Origin: Pseudomonadota bacterium
GTDB taxonomy: Bacteria > Pseudomonadota > Gammaproteobacteria > Steroidobacterales > Steroidobacteraceae
DNA length: 37,036 nt
Assembly (NCBI GenBank): GCA_025360865.1
Contig: JANYBG010000164.1
Span: 1-37,036, forward strand
Reading direction: 5' to 3'
This document shows positions 8,854 through 35,911 of this stretch, one piece after another (the first letter of the stretch is position 1; each line of letters begins with the position of its first letter). Under the pieces are notes generated by a model. The model was not told the DNA's origin, did no database searches, and saw only the letters and a list, made by a program, of their open reading frames with translations. A program made the translations under genes and the position numbers.

Positions 8854-9305
8854 ATCTAACGTTCCCGCCAGTGGCGCTGAGTGAGTCCCACGAGCGAGGG
8901 TAGCCCGGAACGCGAAGCAGGTGCGGGGGCGTCGGCTGGAGTGCGCTCACCGGAGCCCCCGCCAAATGAATGGTGCATTAGCCACCTGGCGCGCGTACGC
9001 CGGCACCAGCTTGGAACTGCCAACGGACGGGCAATCCGTTGGCCGCTGATGTAAGTATTCGATGGCGATACACGTAGCAACGTCTTAGGCTCTTCCTAGG
9101 GCAAGTTCCGTGCAGTGAGCTCAGGCATCCGTCCGCGCCCTGCGGCGGACGCGCCACCACGATCGCGGCGGGGCTGCCGGCGATCCAGCTCGAGGTGCCC
9201 CTGTCCGGAGTGGCCCTCGACCCTGCTCCGCTATCGGGACCGTCAGGCGCTGAGGGTTCTGTATCATCAGCGCCGCTGCCCAGGATCCGGCACGGAGGTT
9301 TTCGC
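8854..9305. other. Non-coding gap with hairpin repeat copy
   Basis: About 450 bases between divergent genes. It contains copy 2 of the 22-nt hairpin repeat and the ribosome-binding site of the downstream amidohydrolase. The open frames across it show no recognisable protein. Confidence 0.45.
9021..9042. repeat. Hairpin repeat, copy 2
   Basis: CAACGGA at 9021-9027 pairs with TCCGTTG at 9035-9041. It matches the element at 85-106 in 21 of 22 positions; the single change shortens the stem from 8 to 7 bp. I saw no third copy in this window. Confidence 0.6.
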
Positions 9306-10649
9306 ATGCGTTCCAAAATCGGCCTCGCGGTACTCGTGTGTTCGCTCGCCCGACTGTGCTGTGCGCAGGGGTCGGAGTCTGCCCCAGTGGCAAGCGTCCC
9401 CGAAGAGGTATGGGTGGTCAGGGCCGGCGCGCTGATCGATGGCACCAGTCCCAGGGCGCGCCTGAACCAGGAAATCGTCGTGCGCGGCAACCGGATCACG
9501 CAGGTTTACGCCGCCGGCTCGCAGCCGCTGCCCGCGGGGGCACGCCTGATCGAGCTCGGCACGGCAACCGTGCTGCCCGGTCTGATCGATTGCCATACGC
9601 ATATCTTTCTGCAGGGTGAGGTGCCCGCCGCCGGCGGCTACGACGTGCAACTGCTGAAGTACCCCGCCTCGTACCGCGCCGCGCGCGCCGTGGTGGCGGT
9701 TCGTCGCGCACTGGAGCAGGGGTTCACCACCATCCGCGACGTCGAGACCGAGGGTGCAGGCTATGGCGACGTCGGCATCAAGCAGGCGATCGAGGAGGGT
9801 TATATCCCGGGCCCGCGCATGTTCGTCGCCACGCGCGCGATCTCATCCACCGGGGGTTACCCGCTGGAGGGCTATGCACCGGAGGTCACCGTGCCCAAGG
9901 GGGTACAGCTGATCGACGGGCCCGTGGAGGCGCGCAAGGCCGCGCGCGAGCAGCTGGACCATGGGGCCGACTGGATCAAGGTGTACATGACCCATCGCTC
10001 CTGGGTGGATGACAAGGGGGAACTGGTCTCGCAGCCAACCCTGACGGTCGAGGAACTGCGCGCGATCGTGGACGAGGCGCATGGGTGGCGCAGGCGGGTG
10101 GCCTGCCACGCTTACAACGGCCCGGGCTTGCAGCGCGCCCTGGATGGCGGCTGCGACTCCATCGAGCACGGCCTGGAGCTCACCGATGCCCAGATCGCGC
10201 AGATGCTGAAGCAGGGGACCTGGTACGTGCCCACCCTGGCGGTCTATTACTACGACCCGGACCCGCAGGACACCCCCAGCGGCCAGCGCGACCGCAAGCG
10301 CGTGTCCTTACACGGGGTCTCATTCCGCAAGGCACTGCATGCCGGGGTGAAGATCGCCTTCGGCACCGATGTTGGCGGCTTCGTGTGGAGCGATCCGATC
10401 GCCCAGGAGTTCGAGCGCGAGGTCGAGTTCGGGATGACGCCGATGCAGGCGATCCAGTCGGCCACTTCGCGCGCGGCCGAGCTCCTGGAGCAGACCTCGA
10501 AGATCGGCGTGGTGGCCCCGGGGGCCTACGCTGATCTGATCGCCGTTTCCGGGGATCCCCTGGCGAACGTGGCGGCGCTCCGGGACGTGGGTTTTGTCAT
10601 GAAGGATGGTCGGGTGTTCAAGTCCGCGCTCGGTGCGTCGCACAATTGA
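9306..10649 (+). CDS. Exported metal-dependent amidohydrolase
   Basis: The 447-residue protein has a signal peptide (MRSKIGLAVLVCSLARLCCAQ) and an amidohydrolase-superfamily TIM barrel. Metal ligands are His-97 and His-99 (DCHTHI), probable carboxylated Lys-225 (DWIKVYMT), His-268 (ACHAYNG), His-288 (SIEHG) and Asp-355 (FGTDVGG). The arrangement fits the imidazolonepropionase-like / Xaa-Pro dipeptidase-like branch, whose exported members hydrolyse C-terminal peptide bonds or amides. ATG 9306 has GGAGG at 9294-9298, seven bases upstream, and places the signal peptide at the terminus. A longer frame from 9195 is rejected. Substrate is not readable. Nearby exported hydrolases suggest peptide or amide scavenging. 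Confidence 0.88.
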   Translation: MRSKIGLAVLVCSLARLCCAQGSESAPVASVPEEVWVVRAGALIDGTSPRARLNQEIVVRGNRITQVYAAGSQPLPAGARLIELGTATVLPGLIDCHTHIFLQGEVPAAGGYDVQLLKYPASYRAARAVVAVRRALEQGFTTIRDVETEGAGYGDVGIKQAIEEGYIPGPRMFVATRAISSTGGYPLEGYAPEVTVPKGVQLIDGPVEARKAAREQLDHGADWIKVYMTHRSWVDDKGELVSQPTLTVEELRAIVDEAHGWRRRVACHAYNGPGLQRALDGGCDSIEHGLELTDAQIAQMLKQGTWYVPTLAVYYYDPDPQDTPSGQRDRKRVSLHGVSFRKALHAGVKIAFGTDVGGFVWSDPIAQEFEREVEFGMTPMQAIQSATSRAAELLEQTSKIGVVAPGAYADLIAVSGDPLANVAALRDVGFVMKDGRVFKSALGASHN

Positions 10650-11992: not shown

Positions 11993-13087
11993 TCAACGCT
12001 GGCCAAACCCGGAAGCCTCGGCCAGGACCTCGCGCGCCAGGGGTACCGGGTCCGCCTCCGCGAGATTCGCCAGCAGCACCACCGTGAGGCCGCTGACCGG
12101 ATCGCGCTCAATCGCCGATCTAAAGCCCTGCCAGGATCCATCAAATTCCAGGACTTCATGCCCGGCCACGCTGACGTGATCCCAGCAAAATCCGTGTTCG
12201 GTGAGGGATCCGTCGCTCAGCCGGCTGCGCGCCCAGAGCGCGTTCCACGAAGCGGCCGACAGTAGAGCGCCCCGGTCCATGGCAGCCACCCAGGCGCGCC
12301 AGTCATCGAGCGACAGATACAGGCTGCCGTCCGCGGTCGCGTTAAGCGATGCGGAGGCGAAGTCCTGGTTGCGAATCCCCGCGGCGGTGCGAATGTAGCC
12401 GGCGGCCCTGTGCGGCACGATGTCCGTGTCGCTGATGATCCGCGCCGTCCTCATGCCGAGCGGTTGAAAGATCTCTCGCGCCAGAAAGTCGCCGTAGAAG
12501 ACACCGGCCACCCGCGTGATGATGATGCCCCCGAGGATGTAGCCCATGTTGTTGTACTTCCAGCGGGTGCCTGGCGGGAAGTTGAGCGGGTAGGACTGCG
12601 CGATCTTGATGATTTCATCGTCGGTGTACTCGCGCCGAAGATCAAAGACTTCGCCGCCGTCATCCTCCGAGTCATGGATACCCGAGGTGTGATCGAGCAG
12701 CTGACGCACGGTGATCGGTTCCCAGGCCGCCGGCCCGGGCGGCAGGTATTGACCGATCCGATCGGCGAGGGAAAGCCGCTGCCGCTCGGCCAGCAGTAGC
12801 AGCGCCGCGGCCGTGAATTGCTTCCCGAGCGAGCCACTCTGGAACATGGTGTCATGCCGAACCGGTGCGCCGTGCTCCACGTTCGCAAGCCCATAGGTGG
12901 AGACCCGCACGGGCTGACCATGACGCATGACGAGCAGCGCCATCCCCGGAATCCGCTCATGGGTCATCGTCGCGGTGATTCGCGCATCCACCCGGTCGGC
13001 GCGGGCGCTCAGCGGCGCCAACCCGAGCGTCGCGAGCAGCAGCAGCAGCACGGCACCGCTGGAACCACTGACACGGGGTTGCGCCAT
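11993..13087 (-). CDS. Exported S12-family serine hydrolase (beta-lactamase-like)
   Basis: The 364-residue protein begins with a signal peptide (about residues 1-30, ending LSARA). It carries the class C beta-lactamase/DD-peptidase motifs SxxK at Ser-86 to Lys-89 (SGSLGKQ) and YxN at Tyr-178 to Asn-180 (KYNN). The third motif, normally HxG, reads EFDGSWQGF, so the His is replaced by Phe. ATG 13087 has AGAGGGAA upstream. Family members are esterases, D-aminopeptidases or beta-lactamase-like enzymes. It is divergent from the TonB receptor with about 100 bases between, and convergent with the SDR. Confidence 0.85.
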   Translation of the reverse strand: MAQPRVSGSSGAVLLLLLATLGLAPLSARADRVDARITATMTHERIPGMALLVMRHGQPVRVSTYGLANVEHGAPVRHDTMFQSGSLGKQFTAAALLLLAERQRLSLADRIGQYLPPGPAAWEPITVRQLLDHTSGIHDSEDDGGEVFDLRREYTDDEIIKIAQSYPLNFPPGTRWKYNNMGYILGGIIITRVAGVFYGDFLAREIFQPLGMRTARIISDTDIVPHRAAGYIRTAAGIRNQDFASASLNATADGSLYLSLDDWRAWVAAMDRGALLSAASWNALWARSRLSDGSLTEHGFCWDHVSVAGHEVLEFDGSWQGFRSAIERDPVSGLTVVLLANLAEADPVPLAREVLAEASGFGQR

Positions 13088-13191
13088 GAGCCGGTTCCCT
13101 CTGGTGTTCCCAAAAGAATAGGTTATTGTAATGATATAGAACCGGGCGACCATCTAATCCGGGCGCTTTAATGAGAATAAAGGATCGAGCT
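13088..13191. promoter_or_regulatory. Divergent promoter region
   Basis: This short spacer separates the S12 hydrolase (minus) and TonB receptor (plus). Around 13110-13140 there is an AT-rich island (GGTTATTGTAATGATATAG) in otherwise GC-rich DNA, which probably holds one or both promoters. AAAGGA at about 13179-13184 is the receptor's ribosome-binding site. Confidence 0.45.
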
Positions 13192-18034: not shown

Positions 18035-18721
18035 ATGAGCGTCACACCTGCAGGGGTGCTCCCGGACGCACTCCCGCGCGCGGTGGTGTTCGACATGGAC
18101 GGCCTGATGCTCGACAGCGAACGCTGGGAGCGCACCGCCTGGCAGGCCGCGGCGCGGCGCCAGGGTCACACGGTCACGGAGGATTTCTACGCGACGCTGG
18201 TCGGACGCCGGGAGGTGGAGACCCGGGGGCTCCTGCGGGAGCACTTCGGTCCGGGCTTCTCGCTCGAGGAGTTTCGCGCGGACGTGGACGCGCAGCTGAC
18301 CGACACCTTGGCCAGGGGTGGACTGCCGGTGAAGGCGGGTCTCATCGAACTGTTGGACGCACTGGACCGGCGGCGCATCCTCAAGGCTGTCGCGAGTTCC
18401 ACCATCAAAGTCAGCGCGTCACAAAGACTCGGCCCGCTGCTGCGGCGTTTCGATGCCACGGCGTTTGGTGATGAGGTGAGCCGCGGCAAGCCTGACCCGC
18501 AGATCTACCGGCTTGCCGCGCGGCGGCTGGGGCTGGCGCCGCGGCTATGTCTTGCGCTGGAGGATTCACCGGTCGGCCTGACGGCGGCGCGGGCGGCGGG
18601 CCTGGTGGTCATCGTCATCCCGGATCTGTTGCCAGCCCCGGCGGAGGCGCCCTTCGTGTGCAAGTCATTGAAGGATATCGCGGATTGGGTCGAGTGCCGC
18701 CATGTCCGTGATAAGCCGTGA
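18035..18721 (+). CDS. HAD-superfamily phosphatase/phosphomutase (subfamily IA)
   Basis: The 228-residue protein has all four HAD motifs: Asp-20 and Asp-22 in VVFDMDGLMLDSE, Ser in ASSTIKVS, Lys in GKPDPQIY and the acidic pair in ALEDSPVGL. The layout with an alpha-helical cap after motif I resembles beta-phosphoglucomutase and sugar-phosphate phosphatases of the YniC type. It lies 18 bases after the M61 gene on the same strand and just before the palindrome of the amino-sugar operon. It could belong to either unit functionally. Substrate likely a small sugar phosphate. Confidence 0.88.
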   Translation: MSVTPAGVLPDALPRAVVFDMDGLMLDSERWERTAWQAAARRQGHTVTEDFYATLVGRREVETRGLLREHFGPGFSLEEFRADVDAQLTDTLARGGLPVKAGLIELLDALDRRRILKAVASSTIKVSASQRLGPLLRRFDATAFGDEVSRGKPDPQIYRLAARRLGLAPRLCLALEDSPVGLTAARAAGLVVIVIPDLLPAPAEAPFVCKSLKDIADWVECRHVRDKP

Positions 18722-18726
18722 TCAAG

Positions 18727-18746
18727 ACATTATAACGTTATAATGT
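18727..18746. promoter_or_regulatory. Perfect 20-bp palindromic operator overlapping a -10 box
   Basis: The sequence ACATTATAACGTTATAATGT is its own reverse complement. It contains TATAAT at 18739-18744, and the permease start is about 90 bases downstream. The only regulator nearby is the GntR/HutC protein at 23867-24613. The central AACGTT, however, resembles LacI-family operators more than the GTnTAnAC pattern of HutC proteins. Repressor binding here would block transcription of the operon. No clear -35 box is visible. Confidence 0.75.
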
Positions 18747-18834
18747 GTGATGGTGCCCGGGCGAGAGCCGACGGCCTTAGAGATGTGTCGGCGAAGCCCA
18801 GCACAATCCAGCACTTATTGAAGAGTTCGTCTTG

Positions 18835-20292
18835 ATGAGCGATCGCCACTCCCAGGAAGTGTCCGGCTCCGGCGGCCAGCGCGCGAGTGCCGCATCGTTC
18901 GGGCTGGGTGATTCGCTCGTCCTGGGTCTGTCGGGATCGGGCCCCGCGCAGACCCTGGCCGTCACGCTCGCAGGCCTGGTGGCCGCCTGTCACTACGGTG
19001 GCGCGCTGCTGGTTCTGGCTTGCCTGTTGCCGATGCTCGGAATCGCCGTTGGCTATCAGCGCCTCAACCGCTGGGACCCGAATTCCGGTGCGACATACAC
19101 CTGGGTTGCGCGAACGTTCCATCCCTACCTGGGGTTCCTCGCCGGGTGGATGATCCTGCTGTACTACACCCTCGGTACCAGTAGCCTCACCATCCCCGCG
19201 GGCACCTACACGCTGCAGCTGCTGGCCCCTTCGCTGGTCGATCGGCCTGTCTGCGTGGCACTGGTCGGTGGCGCCTGGAATGTGGTCGTCACGCTGCTGG
19301 CCCTCAAGGGCCTGAAGATCGCCGCGCGCTTCGAATGGGGGATCGTGATCTTCCAGTACCTCGTGCTGCTGTGCGCGGGGGTGGCGGGCATCGTGGCGCT
19401 GGTGCACGGAACCGCCGCCGTCCCCTTCTCATGGCATTGGTTTTCCCTTGCGGGCATGGGCGGCATGCGCGGCCTCATGAGCGGGATCCTCATCGCCTGT
19501 TTCATGTACTCCGGCTGGGATGCGGCGATTTACGTGAACGAGGAATCCGTGGACCGCAGGAACGATCCGGGACGGGCCGCGATCGCGAGCGTACTGATTC
19601 TCGCCGTGTTCTACGGGGTATGCGTGCTTGGCTTGCAGGCGGCGCTGCCCGCGGCGACCCTCCAGCAGCACGCCGGCAACGCGCTCGCGGTGATTGGGTC
19701 CGCGCTGCTGGGCCCCCCGTGGGGGACCCTCATGAGTCTCGCCGTGCTGACGGGCACGCTGGCGACTTTGCAGGCGGCCGTCATCAGTGCCGCCCGGGTG
19801 AGTTTCGCCATGGCGCGCGACGAGGTCATGCCCGGGCTCCTGCGGCGCGTTGATCCGCGCAGCGGCAACCCGCGCGCCGCCACGGCGGTGATGGGCGTGC
19901 TCAACCTCCTGCTGCTCGCCCTGGCGCTTTCCACCGGCGACGTCGGTCGCGCCCTGAGCAACGTCGTCAGCAGCCTTGGGCTGATCGCGATCGTGTTCTA
20001 CGCGCTGACCGGGGCGGCATCCGTGTGGCAGGAACGGGCGCGGATTTTCCGCTCAGCCAACGCGCTGTTGCTGGGGGGTCTGCTGCCCGGTGGCGGCGCG
20101 CTCTTCATGGTCTGGGTGGCCGTCGAGTCGGTGCGTTCCGGCGCGACCCCCGCGACGGTACTCGCCTACGGCGCGGGGTCCGTGGCGATCGGCGGCGTCG
20201 TCGCCGTCGTGCTGCGGTACCGCGGCCGTTCGACGTTTTTCGCGCGTCCCCGCGCGCCTGACATTTCGCACTCTGGAGACCGTTCATCGTGA
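18835..20292 (+). CDS. APC-family permease
   Basis: The 485-residue protein is a polytopic membrane transporter with about 12 hydrophobic segments. The early glycine-rich FGLGDSLVLGLSGSGPAQT and the NSGATYTWVARTFHPYLGF region match the amino acid/polyamine/organocation family. It would import an amino-containing solute with H+ or Na+. ATG 18835 has GAAGAG upstream; a TTG lies immediately before it. Its TGA overlaps the GTG of the aminotransferase (GTGA at 20289-20292). As the first gene after the operator, it points to an amine-bearing substrate such as an amino sugar, an amino acid or a conjugate. Confidence 0.9.
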   Translation: MSDRHSQEVSGSGGQRASAASFGLGDSLVLGLSGSGPAQTLAVTLAGLVAACHYGGALLVLACLLPMLGIAVGYQRLNRWDPNSGATYTWVARTFHPYLGFLAGWMILLYYTLGTSSLTIPAGTYTLQLLAPSLVDRPVCVALVGGAWNVVVTLLALKGLKIAARFEWGIVIFQYLVLLCAGVAGIVALVHGTAAVPFSWHWFSLAGMGGMRGLMSGILIACFMYSGWDAAIYVNEESVDRRNDPGRAAIASVLILAVFYGVCVLGLQAALPAATLQQHAGNALAVIGSALLGPPWGTLMSLAVLTGTLATLQAAVISAARVSFAMARDEVMPGLLRRVDPRSGNPRAATAVMGVLNLLLLALALSTGDVGRALSNVVSSLGLIAIVFYALTGAASVWQERARIFRSANALLLGGLLPGGGALFMVWVAVESVRSGATPATVLAYGAGSVAIGGVVAVVLRYRGRSTFFARPRAPDISHSGDRSS

Positions 20293-21635
20293 ATCCGACG
20301 TACCCGCACCCGTTGCGCACCGAGCGCAGCGCCGCCCTGTTTCCCAAGGCCGCCGAGGTGATCCCCGCCGGTGTCAACAGCACCGCGCGCGCGCGATTCT
20401 CGGGGTGGGAACCGTATCCGTTGTTTGTCGATCGCGGGTCCGGCGCGCACCTGTTCGATGTCGATGACAACCGTTACATCGACTATTTGCTGGGTCTTGG
20501 CCCGATGCTGCTGGGCCACCGCCCGCCGCGCGTGACCGCCGCGGTCGTCAAGGTGATCACCGAGCGCGGCACCGTGTTCGCGCTGCCGACGGCCGACGAG
20601 GCCCGCCTGGCGCACAAGATCATCGCCGCGGTCCCGAGCGTGGAACAGGTGCGCTTGTGCAACACCGGCACCGAGGCGGTGATCTACGCACTGCGCCTGG
20701 CGCGCACCTTCACCGGCCGCAAGAAGATCATCCGCTTTGAGGGCATGTATCACGGCTTTGGCGACGGGGTCTACTGGAGCAAGCACCCGAATCTTGACGA
20801 GGCGGGTCCGGATGAGCGACCGGTGCCGGTTCCCCAGGGGCCGGGGTTGCCGGCGGCTCTCGCCGACCAGCTGATCATCCTGCCCTGGAATTCAATTCCG
20901 GCGCTGCGTGCCGCCATTGAGCGCGAAGGCGACAACATCGCCGCGGTCCTGACTGAGGCGGTGATGTGCAATACCGGCTGCATCCTGCCGGAGCCGGGCT
21001 ATCTGGAGGCCATGCGGGAGCTGACGGCCGCGCACGGAATCCTCCTCATCTACGACGAGGTCATCACCGGGTTTCGCCTGCATCTGGCCGGCGCGCAGGG
21101 CCGCTACGGCATCCGCCCCGACCTTTCGGTTTTCGCCAAGGGACTGGGGGGCGGCTTCCCGGTCGCGGCCCTGGGCGGCCGAAGGGATATCATGGCGCTG
21201 GCCGCGGACGGCACGGTTTCGATCGCGGGTACCTACACGGCCAACACCATCGCGGTGGCGGCCGCCCTCGCCGCACTCGAGGAACTGAGCGCACCGGGCA
21301 TGTATGAACAACTCAATCGCCGCTGCGAGCACCTGTACGCGGGTCTCGAACAGCTGTTCCGCGACGCGCGCGTACCGGCCCACGTCGTCGGGGTCGGTCC
21401 GGTGATGCAGGTGTGGTTCGCCAATCGTCCCATACGCAACTACCGCGACGCCCACCGCTACGCCAGCCACGCCATCTTCCGCCAATGGTGGGAAGGCATG
21501 ATCAGGCGGGGAATCCTCTTTCACCCGCACGCGTTCGAGAACCTGTTCGTGTCGTTCGCCCATTCGGACGATGACGTCGCGGCCACCCTGGAGGCCGCGC
21601 GTGGCTCCATCGCGGACCTGAAGGCCGATGCCTGA
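20289..21635 (+). CDS. PLP class-III aminotransferase/aminomutase, glutamate-semialdehyde aminomutase-like
   Basis: The 448-residue protein is a fold-type I PLP enzyme closest in look to glutamate-1-semialdehyde 2,1-aminomutase. It starts with FPKAAEVIPAGVNSTARA. It has the phosphate-binding NTGTEA at 125-130, Asp-256 (LIYDEVITGFR) for the PLP ring nitrogen and Lys-284 (FAKGLGGGFPV) for the Schiff base. A GTYTANTIAVAAA segment follows. HemL makes 5-aminolevulinate; this one sits among sugar genes and is unlikely to be the haem enzyme. GTG start at 20289 overlaps the permease stop, and its end overlaps the kinase start by eight bases. A 2,1-amino shift or transamination on an amino sugar is inferred. 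Confidence 0.88.
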   Translation: MNPTYPHPLRTERSAALFPKAAEVIPAGVNSTARARFSGWEPYPLFVDRGSGAHLFDVDDNRYIDYLLGLGPMLLGHRPPRVTAAVVKVITERGTVFALPTADEARLAHKIIAAVPSVEQVRLCNTGTEAVIYALRLARTFTGRKKIIRFEGMYHGFGDGVYWSKHPNLDEAGPDERPVPVPQGPGLPAALADQLIILPWNSIPALRAAIEREGDNIAAVLTEAVMCNTGCILPEPGYLEAMRELTAAHGILLIYDEVITGFRLHLAGAQGRYGIRPDLSVFAKGLGGGFPVAALGGRRDIMALAADGTVSIAGTYTANTIAVAAALAALEELSAPGMYEQLNRRCEHLYAGLEQLFRDARVPAHVVGVGPVMQVWFANRPIRNYRDAHRYASHAIFRQWWEGMIRRGILFHPHAFENLFVSFAHSDDDVAATLEAARGSIADLKADA

Positions 21636-23091
21636 GGATGCCACCGGCCCGTTCGCGCTGGGCCTCGACCTCGGGACCTCGGCGCTCAAGGCGGTCCTGG
21701 TCGACGCGCACGCTCGGGTGCTGGGCGCCGCGGGCGCCCCGATCGCCACGCTGGGCACGCTCCCGGGGCAGGCTGAGCAGGATGCCTCGCAGTGGCTGAC
21801 CGCGGCAGGCCAGGCCGTCGCGGCGCTCGATGCCTGCCTCGCGCGCGGGCCGAGGTGGCGCGGGCAGGTAGGGGCGATTGGCCTCACCGGGCAGCTGCCG
21901 ACGCTTGTGGTGCTGGGCGAGCGCGGCCCGATTGGGCCTGCGATCAGCTGGCAGGATTCCCGTGCGGACGCGGCGACGGCGGCGCTGGTGGGCGCTCGCC
22001 GCGGCGAGCTTTACCGGATAACCGGCATGCCCATCGACGGGCGCTACCTGGCCCCGATGTTCCGTTTCCACTGGCACGAGCGGCGCACCGAAATTCGCCG
22101 TCTTCTGAGCGCCAAGGATTACCTGTGCGCGGCGCTGACCGGCGCCGAGGTCACCGACCCCTCGACCGCCGCCGGATACGGGCTGTTTGAGCTGGCTAGC
22201 GGCGGATTCTCAAGCGCGCTGTGCGCCCTTTGGGACGTGCCGCAGGCCGTGCTGCCCGAGATTCGCCCCGCGCATTCGGTCGCAGGCCCGCTCAGCCCGG
22301 CCGGCGCGGCGCTGCTCGGGCTGGCCACGGGGGTGCCGGTGAGCGTCGGCGCGGCGGACTCCATGAGTGGCGCATATGCCATGGGCTCGCTGGGATCGAC
22401 GGGCCGGGCGTGCGTCGCGATGGGTTCGAGCACCGTCATTCTCGGTGCCGTCCGTGAGCTCCAGCTGGATCCGCGAATGCGCTATCTGCTGAGCCCCCAT
22501 GTGGAATCCGGCTGGTATGCGCGCGAGATGGACCTGCTGGCGACAGGCACGGGCCATGCCTGGTTGTCGGGGTTGCTGGGGTGGGCGCCCGGGGCGCTGG
22601 AACAGCGCGCGGCGCACTCCCCGATCGGGGCTCGCGGGGTGACGTTCACGCCATATCTTGCCGGGGGTGAGCAGGGCGCGCTGTGGAACCCCGCGCTGCG
22701 CGGTGCGCTGCACGGGCTGACGCTGCAGGCGCGGGACCACGACCTCGCCCGCGCCTTCATGGAGGGGGTCGGCTTCGAGATCCGGCGCTGTATCGAGGTC
22801 CTGCACGAGGCGCACAGCGTCACGGAAATCGTGCTGGCCGGTCATCTCGCGCGGGATCCCTTCGCGGCGCAAATGCTGGCGAATATCCTGCGGCGTCCGG
22901 TGCAGCCGTTTCCGAGCGTGTCGCCCGCCGCCCTGGGGGCCGCCCTGGGTGCGCTGCGCGCCCTGCATGCGCCAAACGACCCACCGCCCGCGACGGCATG
23001 GCCGTCACGCTTCGCGCCGGATACGGATCAGCACGAATACCAGCAATGCTATGCCAATTATCTGAAGGTGAGCGCCGCATGCGCCTCCTAG
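21628..23091 (+). CDS. FGGY-family carbohydrate kinase
   Basis: The 487-residue protein matches FGGY kinases, most like xylulokinase. It has N-terminal GLDLGTSALKAVLVD (ATP phosphate loop), IGLTGQLPTLVVL, SWQDSRAD and ADSMSGAYAMGSL. It should phosphorylate a sugar or polyol with ATP. Its ATG overlaps the preceding stop (ATGCCTGA) and its end overlaps the next gene by 13 bases, so it is tightly coupled. In context, it would supply the phosphorylated amino sugar that NagB uses, but substrate is not readable. Confidence 0.9.
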   Translation: MPEDATGPFALGLDLGTSALKAVLVDAHARVLGAAGAPIATLGTLPGQAEQDASQWLTAAGQAVAALDACLARGPRWRGQVGAIGLTGQLPTLVVLGERGPIGPAISWQDSRADAATAALVGARRGELYRITGMPIDGRYLAPMFRFHWHERRTEIRRLLSAKDYLCAALTGAEVTDPSTAAGYGLFELASGGFSSALCALWDVPQAVLPEIRPAHSVAGPLSPAGAALLGLATGVPVSVGAADSMSGAYAMGSLGSTGRACVAMGSSTVILGAVRELQLDPRMRYLLSPHVESGWYAREMDLLATGTGHAWLSGLLGWAPGALEQRAAHSPIGARGVTFTPYLAGGEQGALWNPALRGALHGLTLQARDHDLARAFMEGVGFEIRRCIEVLHEAHSVTEIVLAGHLARDPFAAQMLANILRRPVQPFPSVSPAALGAALGALRALHAPNDPPPATAWPSRFAPDTDQHEYQQCYANYLKVSAACAS

Positions 23092-23870
23092 TGGCCTCCG
23101 GCGCGGGGCAGTTTGGCGCCCTGGCGGCGGACATTGTGCAGGCGCAGCTGGAATCGCGCCCGGATTCGGTGCTGGCGCTGCCCACCGGTTCGACCCCGCT
23201 GGACCTGTACGCGCGGTTGCGGGAGCGCGGCGCGGCCGGCGCGTGTCGGCTGGACAAGGTGCGCTGTTTCAACCTGGACGAGTACGTCGGGCTGGATAGC
23301 GCCGACCCCGCAAGCTACGGGTACTTCCTCGATACGCAGCTGTTCCAGCCGGCGCGGGTACCGCGCGCCAACATTCGACTGCTGCGCGGTGACGCGGGCG
23401 ATCTCGACCGCGAATGTAACGGCTACGAAGCCGCACTCGCCGCCGCGGGCGGGATCGACCTTGCGATCCTGGGACTCGGGGCCAACGGTCACATCGCGTT
23501 CAACGAGCCAGGCACGCCCTGGAACTCGGGGACGCATGTGGTCAGGCTCGCGAGTGAGACGCGTGCGGCGAATGCGCGGACGTTCCCGCCGGGCCGGTCA
23601 GTCCCGCGGTTCGGGATCACCATGGGCATTGGTACCCTCCTCAAAGCCCGCTCGCTGCTTCTGCTGGTGTCGTCCGAGTCCAAGCGTGCGGCCCTGGCGG
23701 CGCTCCTGAGCGGCACGCCGGACCTCGCCTGGCCTGCGACGAGTCTCTATACGCATCCCGCGCTCGTGATCATCTGCGCGGCGGGGCTGGGCGCCGCTGG
23801 GCCCGAACCCGTCATCGCTCCTGCTTGCGACCCGCGCCTCGAGGATCGCGCGTCGCGCCTCCAGCGCTAG
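23079..23870 (+). CDS. nagB: Glucosamine-6-phosphate deaminase/isomerase
   Basis: The 263-residue protein matches NagB, which converts glucosamine-6-phosphate to fructose-6-phosphate and ammonia. Conserved parts are LPTGSTPLDLY, CFNLDEYVGL (Asp-67) and GANGHIAFNEPGT (Asn-136, His-138, Glu-143). The E. coli enzyme has Asp where this has Asn-136; Asn is also found in other family members as far as I recall. ATG 23079 has GAAGGTGAG upstream; a frame reaching 22683 is a shadow of the kinase. The stop TAG forms part of CTAG shared with the convergent GntR gene. It is the last gene of the operon. Confidence 0.93.
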   Translation: MRLLVASGAGQFGALAADIVQAQLESRPDSVLALPTGSTPLDLYARLRERGAAGACRLDKVRCFNLDEYVGLDSADPASYGYFLDTQLFQPARVPRANIRLLRGDAGDLDRECNGYEAALAAAGGIDLAILGLGANGHIAFNEPGTPWNSGTHVVRLASETRAANARTFPPGRSVPRFGITMGIGTLLKARSLLLLVSSESKRAALAALLSGTPDLAWPATSLYTHPALVIICAAGLGAAGPEPVIAPACDPRLEDRASRLQR

Positions 23871-24613
23871 GCCAGCTCCACGGCCTCCACCGCGAACGCC
23901 GGGGCGGTTGCCAGACGAAACGCGAAGGACTTGGCGACGAAGATCATGCGAAACCGGTCGATGGGTTCGCTGCGCGCCGTGAAACTGATGCCGGACACTT
24001 CCACGACCCACTCAAAGTTAAGCAGGCCCAGCAGCTGTTCCTCGCGGGGATCGGCCGGCCGTGATACCAGCGACTGCTCCTCCCGCGATTCCTTCAGGCC
24101 ATAGGATGTCTCGAGAAGACCGTACAACGAGCCCGCTGCGCCCGATTCGAAGTGCGTGCCCAGATCCGGAGCCAGGAGCTTTGGAATGGCGGACAGTTCC
24201 AAAATCATCGGCCGCTGGTTCAGGAGGCGCAACCGGGACAGTTCCCAGACACTCGCCCCCGGCTGCAGCCCCAGGGCGCGGCATTCATCGGCACTCGCGC
24301 CGCGGACCGCACACCCCAGAATTCTCGTTTCCAGGGTGGAATGGGCATCCAGATGCAAGCCATTGCGCAGGCCGCCAACCCGGGTCGTCTCGGCGCGCAC
24401 GCGCGGACGCGCCACGAATGTCCCGCGACCTTGTTCGCGGCGTACCACACCCTGCGTGGCCAGCTCCGCCAACGCGCGCCGCACGGTGACCAGGCTGACT
24501 CCCGCCCGCAGCGCCAGTTTGGCCTCCGGCGGAAGCTGCTCACCCTCGCGCAACTGTTCCTCATCGATGTGCTGCAGGATGAAAGCGATGGTCTTCTCGT
24601 AGAGCGCTCTCAC
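23867..24613 (-). CDS. GntR-family regulator, HutC/UTRA type
   Basis: The 248-residue protein has an N-terminal winged helix-turn-helix (about 5-70: LPPEAKLALRAGVSLVTVRR, then GVVRREQGRGTFVA) and a C-terminal UTRA ligand-binding domain (about 90-240). HutC-type regulators commonly sense the pathway substrate or a phosphorylated sugar, for example NagR with glucosamine-6-phosphate. It is convergent with nagB and its stop overlaps that of nagB. GTG 24613 is the first possible start before the HTH. It is the best candidate for binding the palindrome at 18727-18746, although that site is not a typical HutC motif. Confidence 0.9.
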   Translation of the reverse strand: MRALYEKTIAFILQHIDEEQLREGEQLPPEAKLALRAGVSLVTVRRALAELATQGVVRREQGRGTFVARPRVRAETTRVGGLRNGLHLDAHSTLETRILGCAVRGASADECRALGLQPGASVWELSRLRLLNQRPMILELSAIPKLLAPDLGTHFESGAAGSLYGLLETSYGLKESREEQSLVSRPADPREEQLLGLLNFEWVVEVSGISFTARSEPIDRFRMIFVAKSFAFRLATAPAFAVEAVELA

Positions 24614-25042: not shown

Positions 25043-26551
25043 CTAGTGCGCGACCGTGGTGAAGATCAGGCTCGCGATACGCGGCGGACGCGTCGGCGCG
25101 AGCTCCAATTCGCCCCTGAGCCGGCCGTGCGCGCAGCGCCAGGTGAACTCGCCCGACAGCGCTCCGGCGGCCGTGAGGGGTGCGGAGGTATCACACTCGC
25201 CGACGGTGGCCTTGAGCGCCGCGAGGTCGCGCGCGCGTCCGGCGGCATCGCGGTCGAGCAGGAAGTTCATCGCGAACTTGTCGCCCACCCGCAGAACATC
25301 TCCCGCGGAGTAAACAGCGGCTGACACCTGGTAGGCATCCTTGAGAGCGGTGCTCACGGGGACGGAGCGCTCGGCGGGTAACCATCCGGACTGCCGCAAC
25401 GCAAGCGCGGAGTTCCACACCGGCTCGGCGGCCTCGGCATAGGTACGGCTGGCGAAGGCGAAGATGGCGACGCCCCGCTGCGGCAGCAGCAGCACGTGTG
25501 AACCATAGCCCGGATAGCCACCGGAGTGACTCAGAGTGAAACCGAGGTCGCAATCGATCGCAGCCCGCATTCCCATGCCGTAGGTGGCGGCCAGGCGACA
25601 GGGCGTCGCTGCGTCGGCGCCGGGACGGTCGCGGTACTGGGGGAAATTCGAGCCCTGGGCGAGTTCCCTCACGGTCGCGCGCTTCACCGGACCGGACTCG
25701 GGGCCATCGCGGGGCGGCCACGCGGATAACAGGAACGCCACCCACTTGGCGTAATCATTCGCACTGGTCTGCAGGCCGCCCATCGCGCCGAACGCTCCCG
25801 GACCCAGGGTCGGCTCCAGGCGCCAGGCGTTGTCCTCCCAGCGATAACCGAGTGCGCGGCGCTCCGCTGGCGCGGCGTCGGCGATGAAGCCGGAGGATTC
25901 CATACCAAGGGGCTTGAGCAATGTCCGGCTAACGGTATCGGCGTAGTCGCGCTTGGACACATTGGTGACAACGCGGCCGACGAGGGCGAAGCCGAGGTTC
26001 GAGTACTCGTACGCGGTCTGCGGGGCGCGCGTGAAGGGCACTCCCGCGCGCAACAGTTGCGTGAACTCCGCTTCGGGTAACGGCGTCTGCCGGTCGCCCC
26101 ACGGATCGTCGGTCACGAATCCCGCGACGTGGTTCAGGAGATCCCGGACGCGGATCCTGGGTGAGTCCGCGGTCGGATACTTCCAGCCGCGCAGCTCCGG
26201 CACGTAGTCCTCGGCATTGGCATCCAGGCGCACCCGGCCGTCGTCCCGCAGCTTGAGGAGCGTCAGCGCCGTGAAGGCCTTGGTCATCGAGGCGATGCGG
26301 AACAAGGTGTCCGGGGTGACGGGACGACGCGATTCCTGGGACTGTACGCCGTAGGTTCCCACGTGCACCAGTTCGCCGTCAGCGACGATGCCGTAGACCA
26401 GGCCCGGAATATGCCGATCCAGGACAAAGTCGGCGAAGATCCGGTCGGTCTCGACGAACGCCGGCGCGGCGCCCGGGGAGGGCTCCGCCTGCGCCAAGGC
26501 GGCCAGCATGATCCACAGGGCAAAGGGGGAGAGCAGGCGTGAGGTTTCCAC
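25043..26551 (-). CDS. Exported S12-family serine hydrolase (beta-lactamase-like)
   Basis: From GTG 26551 the protein has 502 residues and a clean signal peptide (VETSRLLSPFALWIMLAALA, then QA). GGAG lies six bases upstream. The S12 motifs are complete: SxxK at Ser-88 to Lys-91 (ASMTKAF), YxN at Tyr-183 to Asn-185 (EYSNLGF) and HxG at His-342 (LSHSGGYPGYGS). About 90 extra C-terminal residues form a separate beta-rich tail. Longer starts at 26587 (ATG) or 26773 add non-conserved residues. Family activities include esterase, D-aminopeptidase and penicillin-binding. Probably periplasmic. Confidence 0.88.
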   Translation of the reverse strand: METSRLLSPFALWIMLAALAQAEPSPGAAPAFVETDRIFADFVLDRHIPGLVYGIVADGELVHVGTYGVQSQESRRPVTPDTLFRIASMTKAFTALTLLKLRDDGRVRLDANAEDYVPELRGWKYPTADSPRIRVRDLLNHVAGFVTDDPWGDRQTPLPEAEFTQLLRAGVPFTRAPQTAYEYSNLGFALVGRVVTNVSKRDYADTVSRTLLKPLGMESSGFIADAAPAERRALGYRWEDNAWRLEPTLGPGAFGAMGGLQTSANDYAKWVAFLLSAWPPRDGPESGPVKRATVRELAQGSNFPQYRDRPGADAATPCRLAATYGMGMRAAIDCDLGFTLSHSGGYPGYGSHVLLLPQRGVAIFAFASRTYAEAAEPVWNSALALRQSGWLPAERSVPVSTALKDAYQVSAAVYSAGDVLRVGDKFAMNFLLDRDAAGRARDLAALKATVGECDTSAPLTAAGALSGEFTWRCAHGRLRGELELAPTRPPRIASLIFTTVAH

Positions 26552-26820
26552 TTCGTTCTCCGTCCGGGCGCTGATTCCTGTTGGCATCTTGGCATCGCCG
26601 CAGGGAGAAAACACGCCCGGGAGGAGCCCGAGGCTCACCGGCGCGCACTCTCGATCAGCGCCATCCCGGGCCGGCTTTGATCCGGCCGGCCTAGCACGAT
26701 CTGCGCAGGGGCGCGATTTGAAGGACCGCGCCCCCGGAGACGTCGGAGGGGTAGCCCCCCCGTCACGCGTCAATCCAACGATCTGGCCACGCGAGCCGCG
26801 TGTGGCCGCGCCGCCTGCGC

Positions 26821-35686: not shown

Positions 35687-35911
35687 ATGGCGACCCCTTA
35701 CAATGATCAGTGGCGGCTCGAACGGTGGCCTGACGAGGCCGCAAGGCGGGCGGGGCAGCGCGAGATGATGACTTGCGCCCAGCCGCGAGAGGTCATGGCT
35801 GGGAAGTTCCACCCGGAGCTGCCACTGGAGAGGGCGGATCTTGCGGCTAGCGCTCGCAGACATTTGTCGCTGCGGCGAAGGCAAAGAACGGGCTCCGATG
35901 GCCGCGCCTGA
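35687..35911 (+). CDS. Small ORF upstream of a ParB-like gene
   Basis: A 74-residue frame starts at ATG 35687 with GGAGG nine bases upstream, a strong ribosome-binding site. The first 25 residues (MATPYNDQWRLERWPDEAAR onward) look protein-like; the arginine-rich end is less convincing. Its stop overlaps the next gene start by 14 bases, so translation may be coupled. No family is recognised. Confidence 0.5.
   Translation: MATPYNDQWRLERWPDEAARRAGQREMMTCAQPREVMAGKFHPELPLERADLAASARRHLSLRRRQRTGSDGRA

Follow-up and report, generated by a model that had tools for sequence, protein, structure and literature searches.

Which compound does a bacterium consume with an operon that joins a permease, an enzyme resembling the haem-pathway protein HemL, a sugar kinase and a glucosamine-6-phosphate (GlcN6P) deaminase? 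This question is raised by a 37,036-nucleotide contig (JANYBG010000164.1, assembly GCA_025360865.1; the whole stretch is hereafter the window) of a gammaproteobacterium of the family Steroidobacteraceae. The operon consists, in order, of an APC-family permease, a HemL-like pyridoxal 5′-phosphate (PLP) enzyme, an FGGY kinase and NagB, followed by a convergent GntR/UTRA regulator. The comparisons across genomes reported here, on which the gene set, its co-inheritance, the common operator and the endpoint rest, indicate with good confidence that these genes form part of a larger predicted regulon whose catabolic endpoint is GlcN6P.

The five genes are the APC permease (AA_permease_2, PF13520; 18832-20292, forward strand), the class-III HemL-like enzyme (PF00202; 20289-21635, forward, GTG start), the FGGY sugar kinase (PF00370 and PF02782; 21628-23091, forward), the NagB-I-type deaminase (PF01182; 23079-23870, forward) and the GntR/UTRA regulator (PF00392 and PF07702; 23867-24613, reverse). 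The first start of the permease frame is TTG, with an in-frame ATG at 18835. All five exceed their Pfam cut-offs, and both families and positions agree with a first-pass annotation of this DNA made from its letters. The overlaps it described are also present: the permease TGA stop (20292) and the GTG start of the HemL-like gene (20289) share the 4 bases GTGA, the HemL-like and FGGY genes share the 8 bases ATGCCTGA, and FGGY and NagB share 13 bases. The NagB and GntR genes overlap tail to tail by 4 bases. That annotation had delimited the core five genes correctly and missed the genes between about 12.0 kb and 18.7 kb, which are treated below.

A gene set scattered across distant bacteria

A genome scan with the HemL-like protein yielded 490 matching stretches, and the loci analysed are the best 80 of these, 62-85% identical to the query. 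We call class A the 29 of the 80 loci that encode an FGGY relative, and compare them with the remaining 51; the FGGY count is therefore circular, and the counts of other genes are not. Neighbour and operator counts use the 29 loci. The search for the palindrome core described below included L130 as a thirtieth, and the HemL residue alignment, also with L130, contains 31 class A rows including the window. For distance correlations, L012, whose contig ends inside FGGY, was left out and the window added, giving 28 loci plus the window, or 29 rows.

Class A spans seven major lineages: Gammaproteobacteria, Alphaproteobacteria, Acidobacteria (three loci), Bacillota, Spirochaetes, Synergistetes and Actinobacteria. 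NagB-I is encoded in 19 of the 29 class A loci and in none of the 51 others, APC relatives in 17 versus 1, and GntR relatives in 21 versus 0. The first-pass annotation had proposed asking whether the genes are conserved together, and the 29 loci with both HemL and FGGY answer that they are. The HemL and FGGY distance matrices correlate at r=0.91 (29 rows), a value that shows joint inheritance and does not imply an excess over species kinship. The HemL distances also correlate with those of NagB (0.79, 20 rows), APC (0.91, 17 rows) and GntR (0.76, 22 rows), and none of 2000 permutations reached any of these four values.

The gene set is rare and patchy, yet widely scattered across bacteria. Among 99 genomes near the window, its own genome included, five carry this HemL at 77% identity or more, and the sixth match is a 45% relative; surveys in other phyla found a relative in 1/149, 2/337, 2/249, 2/296 and 1/247 genomes, the query genome being counted each time. 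Chance co-location of these genes was ruled out by the class A counts, the distance correlations, the NagB-I distribution and the operator enrichment, the last two of which are presented below.

The palindrome, the operator and the predicted regulon

The perfect palindrome that had been noted ahead of the operon is the 20-bp ACATTATAACGTTATAATGT at 18727-18746, upstream of APC. Block shuffling of the 300 bp upstream of APC produced a perfect 20-bp palindrome in 4 of 5000 trials, and shuffling of the whole window did so in 18 of 200, so that the one observed is unlikely to be a chance feature of the APC promoter and is unremarkable across the window. We rejected the palindrome as a conserved operator: a search for its 14-bp core that allowed up to 3 mismatches located 6 sites, which are spread over four of the 30 class A loci (L003, L004, L026 and L077) and only some of which are in promoters.

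The motif TCATTRYAATGA is a better candidate. It was read by eye from the regions upstream of APC and GntR in gammaproteobacteria, where its enrichment is partly circular; the sites at TonB and S12 genes, those of Alphaproteobacteria and Bacillota, and the window site at 13123 are independent of its derivation. With up to 1 mismatch, it has 29 sites, which lie in 20 of the 29 class A loci; the 51 others have none, and shuffling the class A loci 20 times gave a mean of 1.05 sites and a maximum of 3. The palindrome, which has no match to the motif within 2 mismatches, is possibly a degenerate double form of it.

In the window, the operator TTATTGTAATGA (13123-13134, 1 mismatch to TCATTRYAATGA) is located between two divergent genes. 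One encodes a D-peptidase-like S12 hydrolase of the beta-lactamase fold (11993-13153, reverse), the start of which is ambiguous (ATG 13153 or ATG 13087; with the latter, the operator falls upstream of the gene). The other encodes a TonB-dependent outer-membrane receptor, TonB1 (PF00593 and PF07715; 13171-16083, forward). These are followed by a glycyl-aminopeptidase-like M61 protein with a PDZ domain (PF05299 and PF17899; 15998-18016, forward, start uncertain) and, as an optional member assigned by a family scan, a beta-PGM-like HAD-IA phosphatase (18035-18721, forward), relatives of which sit upstream of APC in L004, L006 and L007.

TonB1 relatives, 56-77% identical, occur in nine gammaproteobacterial loci, and M61 adjoins TonB1 in the same nine (9/29 in class A, 0/51 in the others). 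With the window included, nine of the 10 loci that encode TonB1 have an operator of up to 1 mismatch no more than 132 bp ahead of this gene; in seven of them, the window among these, TonB1 has an upstream region of its own, not used for the derivation. In L019 and L026 the site between GntR and TonB1 stood in the sequences from which the motif was derived, and the only other 1-mismatch site of L015 falls within the GntR gene. Further sites adjoin the divergent S12 gene (L003, L005, L008 and the window), precede a second TonB receptor (L008 and L004) or lie between that receptor and APC (L018). Elsewhere, the operator precedes HemL in five Alphaproteobacteria (L009, L010, L011, L014 and L016) and in the Bacillota locus, precedes APC in L034, and lies between importer genes in L025. 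No operator within 2 mismatches was found in the APC promoters of L003, L005 and L007, and 9 of the 29 class A loci, including those of Spirochaetes, Synergistetes, Acidobacteria and Actinobacteria, had none at up to 1 mismatch. A weak operator-like site at 35695 of the window (CCCTTACAATGA, 2 mismatches), far from these genes, is probably a chance match.

Because of these common operator sites, S12, TonB1 and M61 probably belong to the same regulon as the operon. The GntR/UTRA protein is its probable repressor and would hold the units silent by binding TCATTRYAATGA; an effector, for which a phosphorylated amino sugar is the likely candidate, would relieve the repression. The HutC-type assignment of this regulator in the first-pass annotation holds at the level of the UTRA domain and not beyond, with the top-scoring NCBIfam models, PhnF (91.7 bits) and HutC (87.2 bits), both below their cut-offs.

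Glucosamine-6-phosphate as the predicted endpoint

The earlier placement of GlcN6P as an intermediate is backed both by the NagB residues and by the distribution of the two deaminase types. Residues D67, E68, H138, E143 and K202, which include the catalytic Asp, His and Glu and phosphate-binding positions, are each present in 19 or more of the 20 rows. The window protein has N136 where the Escherichia coli enzyme has Asp, and the same Asn is present in the Bacillus subtilis enzyme (2bkv/2bkx). It is the sole NagB-I match in its genome at E 1e-15. At this threshold NagB-I occurs in 3 of the 99 related genomes, all three among the five with this HemL, a coincidence that a simple draw would produce 10 times in 156,849, kinship ignored.

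Four gammaproteobacterial genomes with an operon that lacks NagB (L003, L005, L007 and L018) have no NagB-I match genome-wide at E 1e-15, and each carries a double-SIS protein of about 350 residues. The one such protein that was scanned (L116) matched NagB-II best, at 332.5 bits, below the cut-off of 430, and the frame adjoining its gene is presumably NagA-like. NagB-II relatives of at least 53% identity are present in 7 of 13 gammaproteobacterial genomes, namely these four and L006, L008 and L017, which hold the operon NagB as well; this count stands without a background rate for the group. The window genome, L004, L015, L019 and L026 rely on the operon NagB alone, their double-SIS matches (34-37%) being long, GlmS-like frames. 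Thus, all 12 resolvable genomes of the 13 (the contig of L012 ends in FGGY) hold at least one likely GlcN6P deaminase. Synergistete and Spirochaete genomes without NagB at the locus have NagB-I matches elsewhere (38-41%), and two Acidobacteria genomes have weaker ones (32-35%). Since NagB-I is restricted, among the 99 related genomes, to those with this HemL, and NagB-II-like genes are present in the gammaproteobacterial genomes without the operon NagB, GlcN6P, which NagB would convert to fructose-6-phosphate, is a well supported endpoint on this comparative evidence.

The route by which GlcN6P would be reached differs from the known ones. Like the N-acetylglucosamine (GlcNAc) and glucosamine systems (nagAB and the NagB-II variants), the operon would end in GlcN6P deamination, with NagB-I or NagB-II available, but it has FGGY and the HemL-like enzyme, and no NagA, ROK-type kinase or phosphotransferase system was found among the operon proteins scanned. 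The first-pass view that this is not a standard GlcNAc route is thereby sustained.

Closer to another idea of that annotation is an frl-type Amadori pathway, in which FGGY would phosphorylate a fructosyl-amino acid and NagB would serve as the deglycase. The frl kinase is of the PfkB type and the frl deglycase of the SIS type; the E. coli permease FrlA presumably belongs to the APC family, as does the permease here. The overall plan is the same, comprising a transporter, a kinase, a deglycating, amine-releasing enzyme and a convergently encoded GntR-type repressor, as described for B. subtilis (PMC12632257). Furthermore, the peptidases would supply glycated amino acids. However, the operon differs from frl in its FGGY kinase, its NagB-type last enzyme, the additional HemL-like enzyme and the TonB, M61 and S12 genes that share an operator. 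No PfkB-type kinase or SIS deglycase is among the operon proteins, NagB retains the GlcN6P deaminase residues, and the one double-SIS protein scanned from the genomes without NagB scored 47.8 bits as a fructoselysine-6-phosphate deglycase against its 332.5 as NagB-II. Nor is there an evident role for HemL on a secondary amine. An ordinary Amadori pathway is thus the part of the first-pass interpretation that we disfavour, as very improbable; the amine-bearing substrate, the route through GlcN6P and the departure from GlcNAc catabolism are retained.

The HemL-like enzyme and the proposed pathway

What the HemL-like enzyme would contribute is the central question of the pathway. It passes the NCBIfam model NF000818, named glutamate-1-semialdehyde 2,1-aminomutase (GSAM), at 446.1 bits versus a cut-off of 398, and 6 of 13 plasmid-borne relatives are annotated accordingly, so that one might consider a true HemL carried as a passenger in an otherwise ordinary glucosamine operon. 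However, the protein misses the HemL equivalog TIGR00713 (419.7 bits versus 527.3) and by this cut-off is not a true HemL; other GSAM-like genes, 38-45% identical, are present elsewhere in the genome; and the enzyme has altered active-site residues and is conserved with FGGY across phyla. On the equivalog cut-off, the residues and the gene context we rejected the passenger explanation, to which we give a negligible probability. A role as muramic-acid etherase was discarded on chemistry alone.

With GSAM the enzyme shares membership of the class-III PLP enzymes as well as the PLP lysine K284 and E417, both kept in 31/31 class A rows, E417 corresponding in our reading to E406 of the Synechococcus enzyme. 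R34 matches the GSAM arginine and is kept in 9/9 aligned paralogues as well, so it is not diagnostic. In contrast, L70 and S311, present in 31/31 class A rows, replace a Trp and a Tyr of the five solved GSAMs compared, which we take to line the substrate pocket, and the genomic context is sugar-catabolic rather than haem-related. A seven-residue insertion at about 162-168 extends the gating-loop region, presumably unextended in GSAM, relative to all five structures. At each position of Y162-W-S-K-H-P167, at least 30 of the 31 class A rows and at least 52 of the 55 other rows agree; the latter group includes the distant paralogues L142 and L144, likely the two exceptions in most columns, and L128, which was placed there only because its short stretch showed no FGGY.

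This insertion could also turn a mutase into a transaminase. HemL would then act on a different amino sugar or amino-polyol, the product of which FGGY phosphorylates, with NagB serving in another branch. The class-III relatives include the C-6′ aminotransferases 7lm0 and 7lld, presumably aminoglycoside enzymes. However, if the amine were lost ahead of the NagB step, that enzyme would have nothing to act on, even though in the 99 relatives NagB-I occurs only with this HemL. We consider a transaminase quite unlikely.

GSAM converts an alpha-amino aldehyde to an alpha-amino ketone. By chemical reasoning, the sugar counterpart of this exchange would be the interconversion of glucosamine and 1-amino-1-deoxyfructose. 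Narrow searches of the open-access PMC literature found neither an account of this gene set nor one of a sugar aminomutase.

The kinase is likewise only partly typical of its family. FGGY_N (129.3 bits) and FGGY_C (70.8 bits) exceed their cut-offs, and Asp244, which we take to be catalytic, is kept as in xylulokinase; the XylB equivalog was not reached (247.6 bits versus 380.25). The difference lies in the GQMHG motif of E. coli XylB, the Met-His of which is presumably the substrate pair: it is replaced by [GA]Q[LMI]P[TS] across the alignment of 29 class A rows (Q-M-H-G to Q-[LMI]-P-[TS]). A review of FGGY kinases covers nine specificities, and the word "glucosamine" is absent from its main text (PMC3245297).

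The genes that surround the operon point to the form in which the sugar might arrive. The window S12 protein has alkaline D-peptidase 4y7p as its closest solved relative (E 4.8e-31) and D-aminopeptidase as its best NCBIfam match (94.7 bits, below the cut-off of 443), and S12 relatives are encoded in 20 of the 29 class A loci and in 4 of the 51 others. Relatives of a Dpp permease are found in 13 of 29 versus 1 of 51. The alphaproteobacterial loci carry a Dpp-type ABC importer, an M17 aminopeptidase and S12, several of them in line with HemL, FGGY and NagB, and the Spirochaete and Synergistete loci have an importer plus an M20 protein. Enzymes of amino acid chemistry complete the picture: an Acidobacteria locus (L079) encodes an OSBS/N-acylamino-acid-racemase-type protein (TIGR01928, 336.3 bits versus a cut-off of 200.65), five of the 29 class A loci have PLP proteins of the alanine-racemase or decarboxylase fold, L076 has a DapE/ArgE-like M20 protein, and L058 a D-Ala-D-Ala dipeptidase domain. 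Because the TonB receptor, M61 peptidase and S12 hydrolase have a common operator, and because of the importers, peptidases and D-amino-acid enzymes elsewhere, the substrate is probably an amino sugar in conjugated form, as a peptide or amide, with D-amino acids. An amine-bearing substrate, as suggested earlier, is supported; the 1-amino-1-deoxy-ketose then named stays the leading candidate for the sugar, and the conjugate was absent from that picture.

Two other window genes touch on this theme. A second S12 protein of the beta-lactamase fold is encoded just past the GntR gene (25043-26773, reverse), where the operator search found no site nearby. Judged by eye, the translation of 9195-10649 (forward) resembles a secreted metal-dependent amidohydrolase, which adds to the peptide theme beside S12 and M61.

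We propose that TonB1 would carry the conjugate across the outer membrane and that the S12 hydrolase and M61 aminopeptidase, probably both exported, would trim it, after which the APC permease would import the amine-bearing product. The HemL-like enzyme and FGGY would jointly give GlcN6P: as a 1,2-aminomutase, HemL would shift the amine between two carbons, C1 in a 1-amino-1-deoxyketose (fructosamine) and C2 in the aldose, before or after phosphorylation, and NagB would split GlcN6P into fructose-6-phosphate and ammonia. In this complete form, where we infer the aminomutase reaction, the order of steps, the cell locations, the operator-binding protein, the effector and the substrate, the model is tentative, with the balance a little against it.

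Several observations weigh against parts of it. The step from the peptidases to a free 1-amino-1-deoxyketose is its weakest point, and we know of no natural example of the assumed amide conjugate. No operon enzyme has an assayed relative that acts on the proposed substrate. We also know of no FGGY kinase that acts on an aldohexosamine; this would favour the kinase step as the first. NagB of the window scores below the TIGR00502 cut-off (212.2 versus 236.9 bits), and 10 of the 29 class A loci showed no NagB, among them L012, which ends inside FGGY. The APC promoter of the window holds the palindrome only, with no operator within 2 mismatches; the S12 proteins are only about 30% alike across lineages; and the Bacillota, Spirochaete, Synergistete and Actinobacteria cases are one metagenome-assembled genome each. 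Finally, in locus L022 of the Caulobacterales, HemL is accompanied by S12 and an MR_MLE enzyme, with neither FGGY nor NagB, so that HemL may act on the peptide part.

This last locus agrees with a model of two arms, in which the substrate is a muropeptide-like glycopeptide with D-amino acids, FGGY and NagB take the sugar, and HemL is a D-amino-acid transaminase or racemase. The D-peptidase-like S12 genes, the OSBS/racemase-type protein, the racemase- and decarboxylase-fold PLP proteins, the M20 protein of L076 and the dipeptidase domain of L058 would all fit, and the four S12-bearing loci among the 51 others are all Caulobacterales of the L022 kind. However, HemL and FGGY adjoin each other in almost all class A loci, and their distances correlate at r=0.91; the score of HemL against GSAM (353.2 bits) is far above that against D-phenylglycine aminotransferase (195.8 bits); and none of NagA, NagZ, MurQ and AmpD is among the class A neighbours scanned, many neighbours lying outside the scan. 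Moreover, a HAD phosphatase is present in 44 of the 51 HemL loci outside class A, and none of the S12, M17, M20 and M61 proteins used has a relative in 46 of them. We regard the division into two arms as unlikely.

The aminomutase reading gains breadth from those 51 loci. The phosphatase in the 44 is an MtnX-like HAD-IB enzyme, relatives of which are absent from all 29 class A loci; the seven loci with neither FGGY nor HAD-IB are five Caulobacterales and two Hyphomicrobiales. In a tree built by a quick method and with long branches, the deep non-proteobacterial rows are class A, except for the short unclassified L128, and the phosphatase type is nested inside; for this reason the kinase pairing is probably the older one. 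We infer that a kinase in one set and a phosphatase in the other reflect one conversion run in two directions. On this basis, the HemL-like family might be a new group of sugar aminomutases that interconvert 1-amino-1-deoxyketoses and 2-amino-2-deoxyaldoses (free or as 6-phosphates), consuming a ketose conjugate when paired with FGGY and NagB and making one from GlcN6P when paired with the HAD-IB phosphatase; this wider proposal is doubtful.

The loci without FGGY have features of their own. HemL-like genes stand beside the MtnX-like phosphatase in class B loci such as L043, L059, L063, L030 and L032, and in L163 (Aureimonas plasmid pAU20b, 1910-11311). Their neighbours include small EamA/ArnE-F-like transporters, a GNAT/FemAB-like acyltransferase, an alpha/beta hydrolase, an arginase-like protein and a two-component system, joined in some Rhodanobacteraceae by a ketoacyl synthase and an acyl carrier protein and in some loci by a fatty-acid desaturase. 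Class B may represent an undescribed lipid or amide biosynthesis locus. In the Caulobacterales loci L020, L021 and L022, in which no FGGY, NagB or HAD-IB phosphatase relative was found, a GMC oxidoreductase is encoded directly upstream of HemL, with the S12 hydrolase and MR_MLE enzyme added in L022. In the Hyphomicrobiales loci L065 and L068 the HemL-like gene is followed by genes for a sulfite-oxidase-type molybdopterin protein and an OpuAC-type binding protein, the families being assigned from a scan of L065.

To conclude, the evidence indicates that HemL-like proteins encoded beside an FGGY kinase belong to amino-sugar chemistry, although annotation can name them haem-pathway aminomutases. 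If the aminomutase step is right, it would be a new reaction that joins two classes of amino sugars and a new entry to GlcN6P, and the gene set could serve as a guide to a peptide-like natural compound. If the conversion indeed runs in both directions, fructosamine-type sugars would join bacterial metabolism as natural compounds that are both made and eaten.

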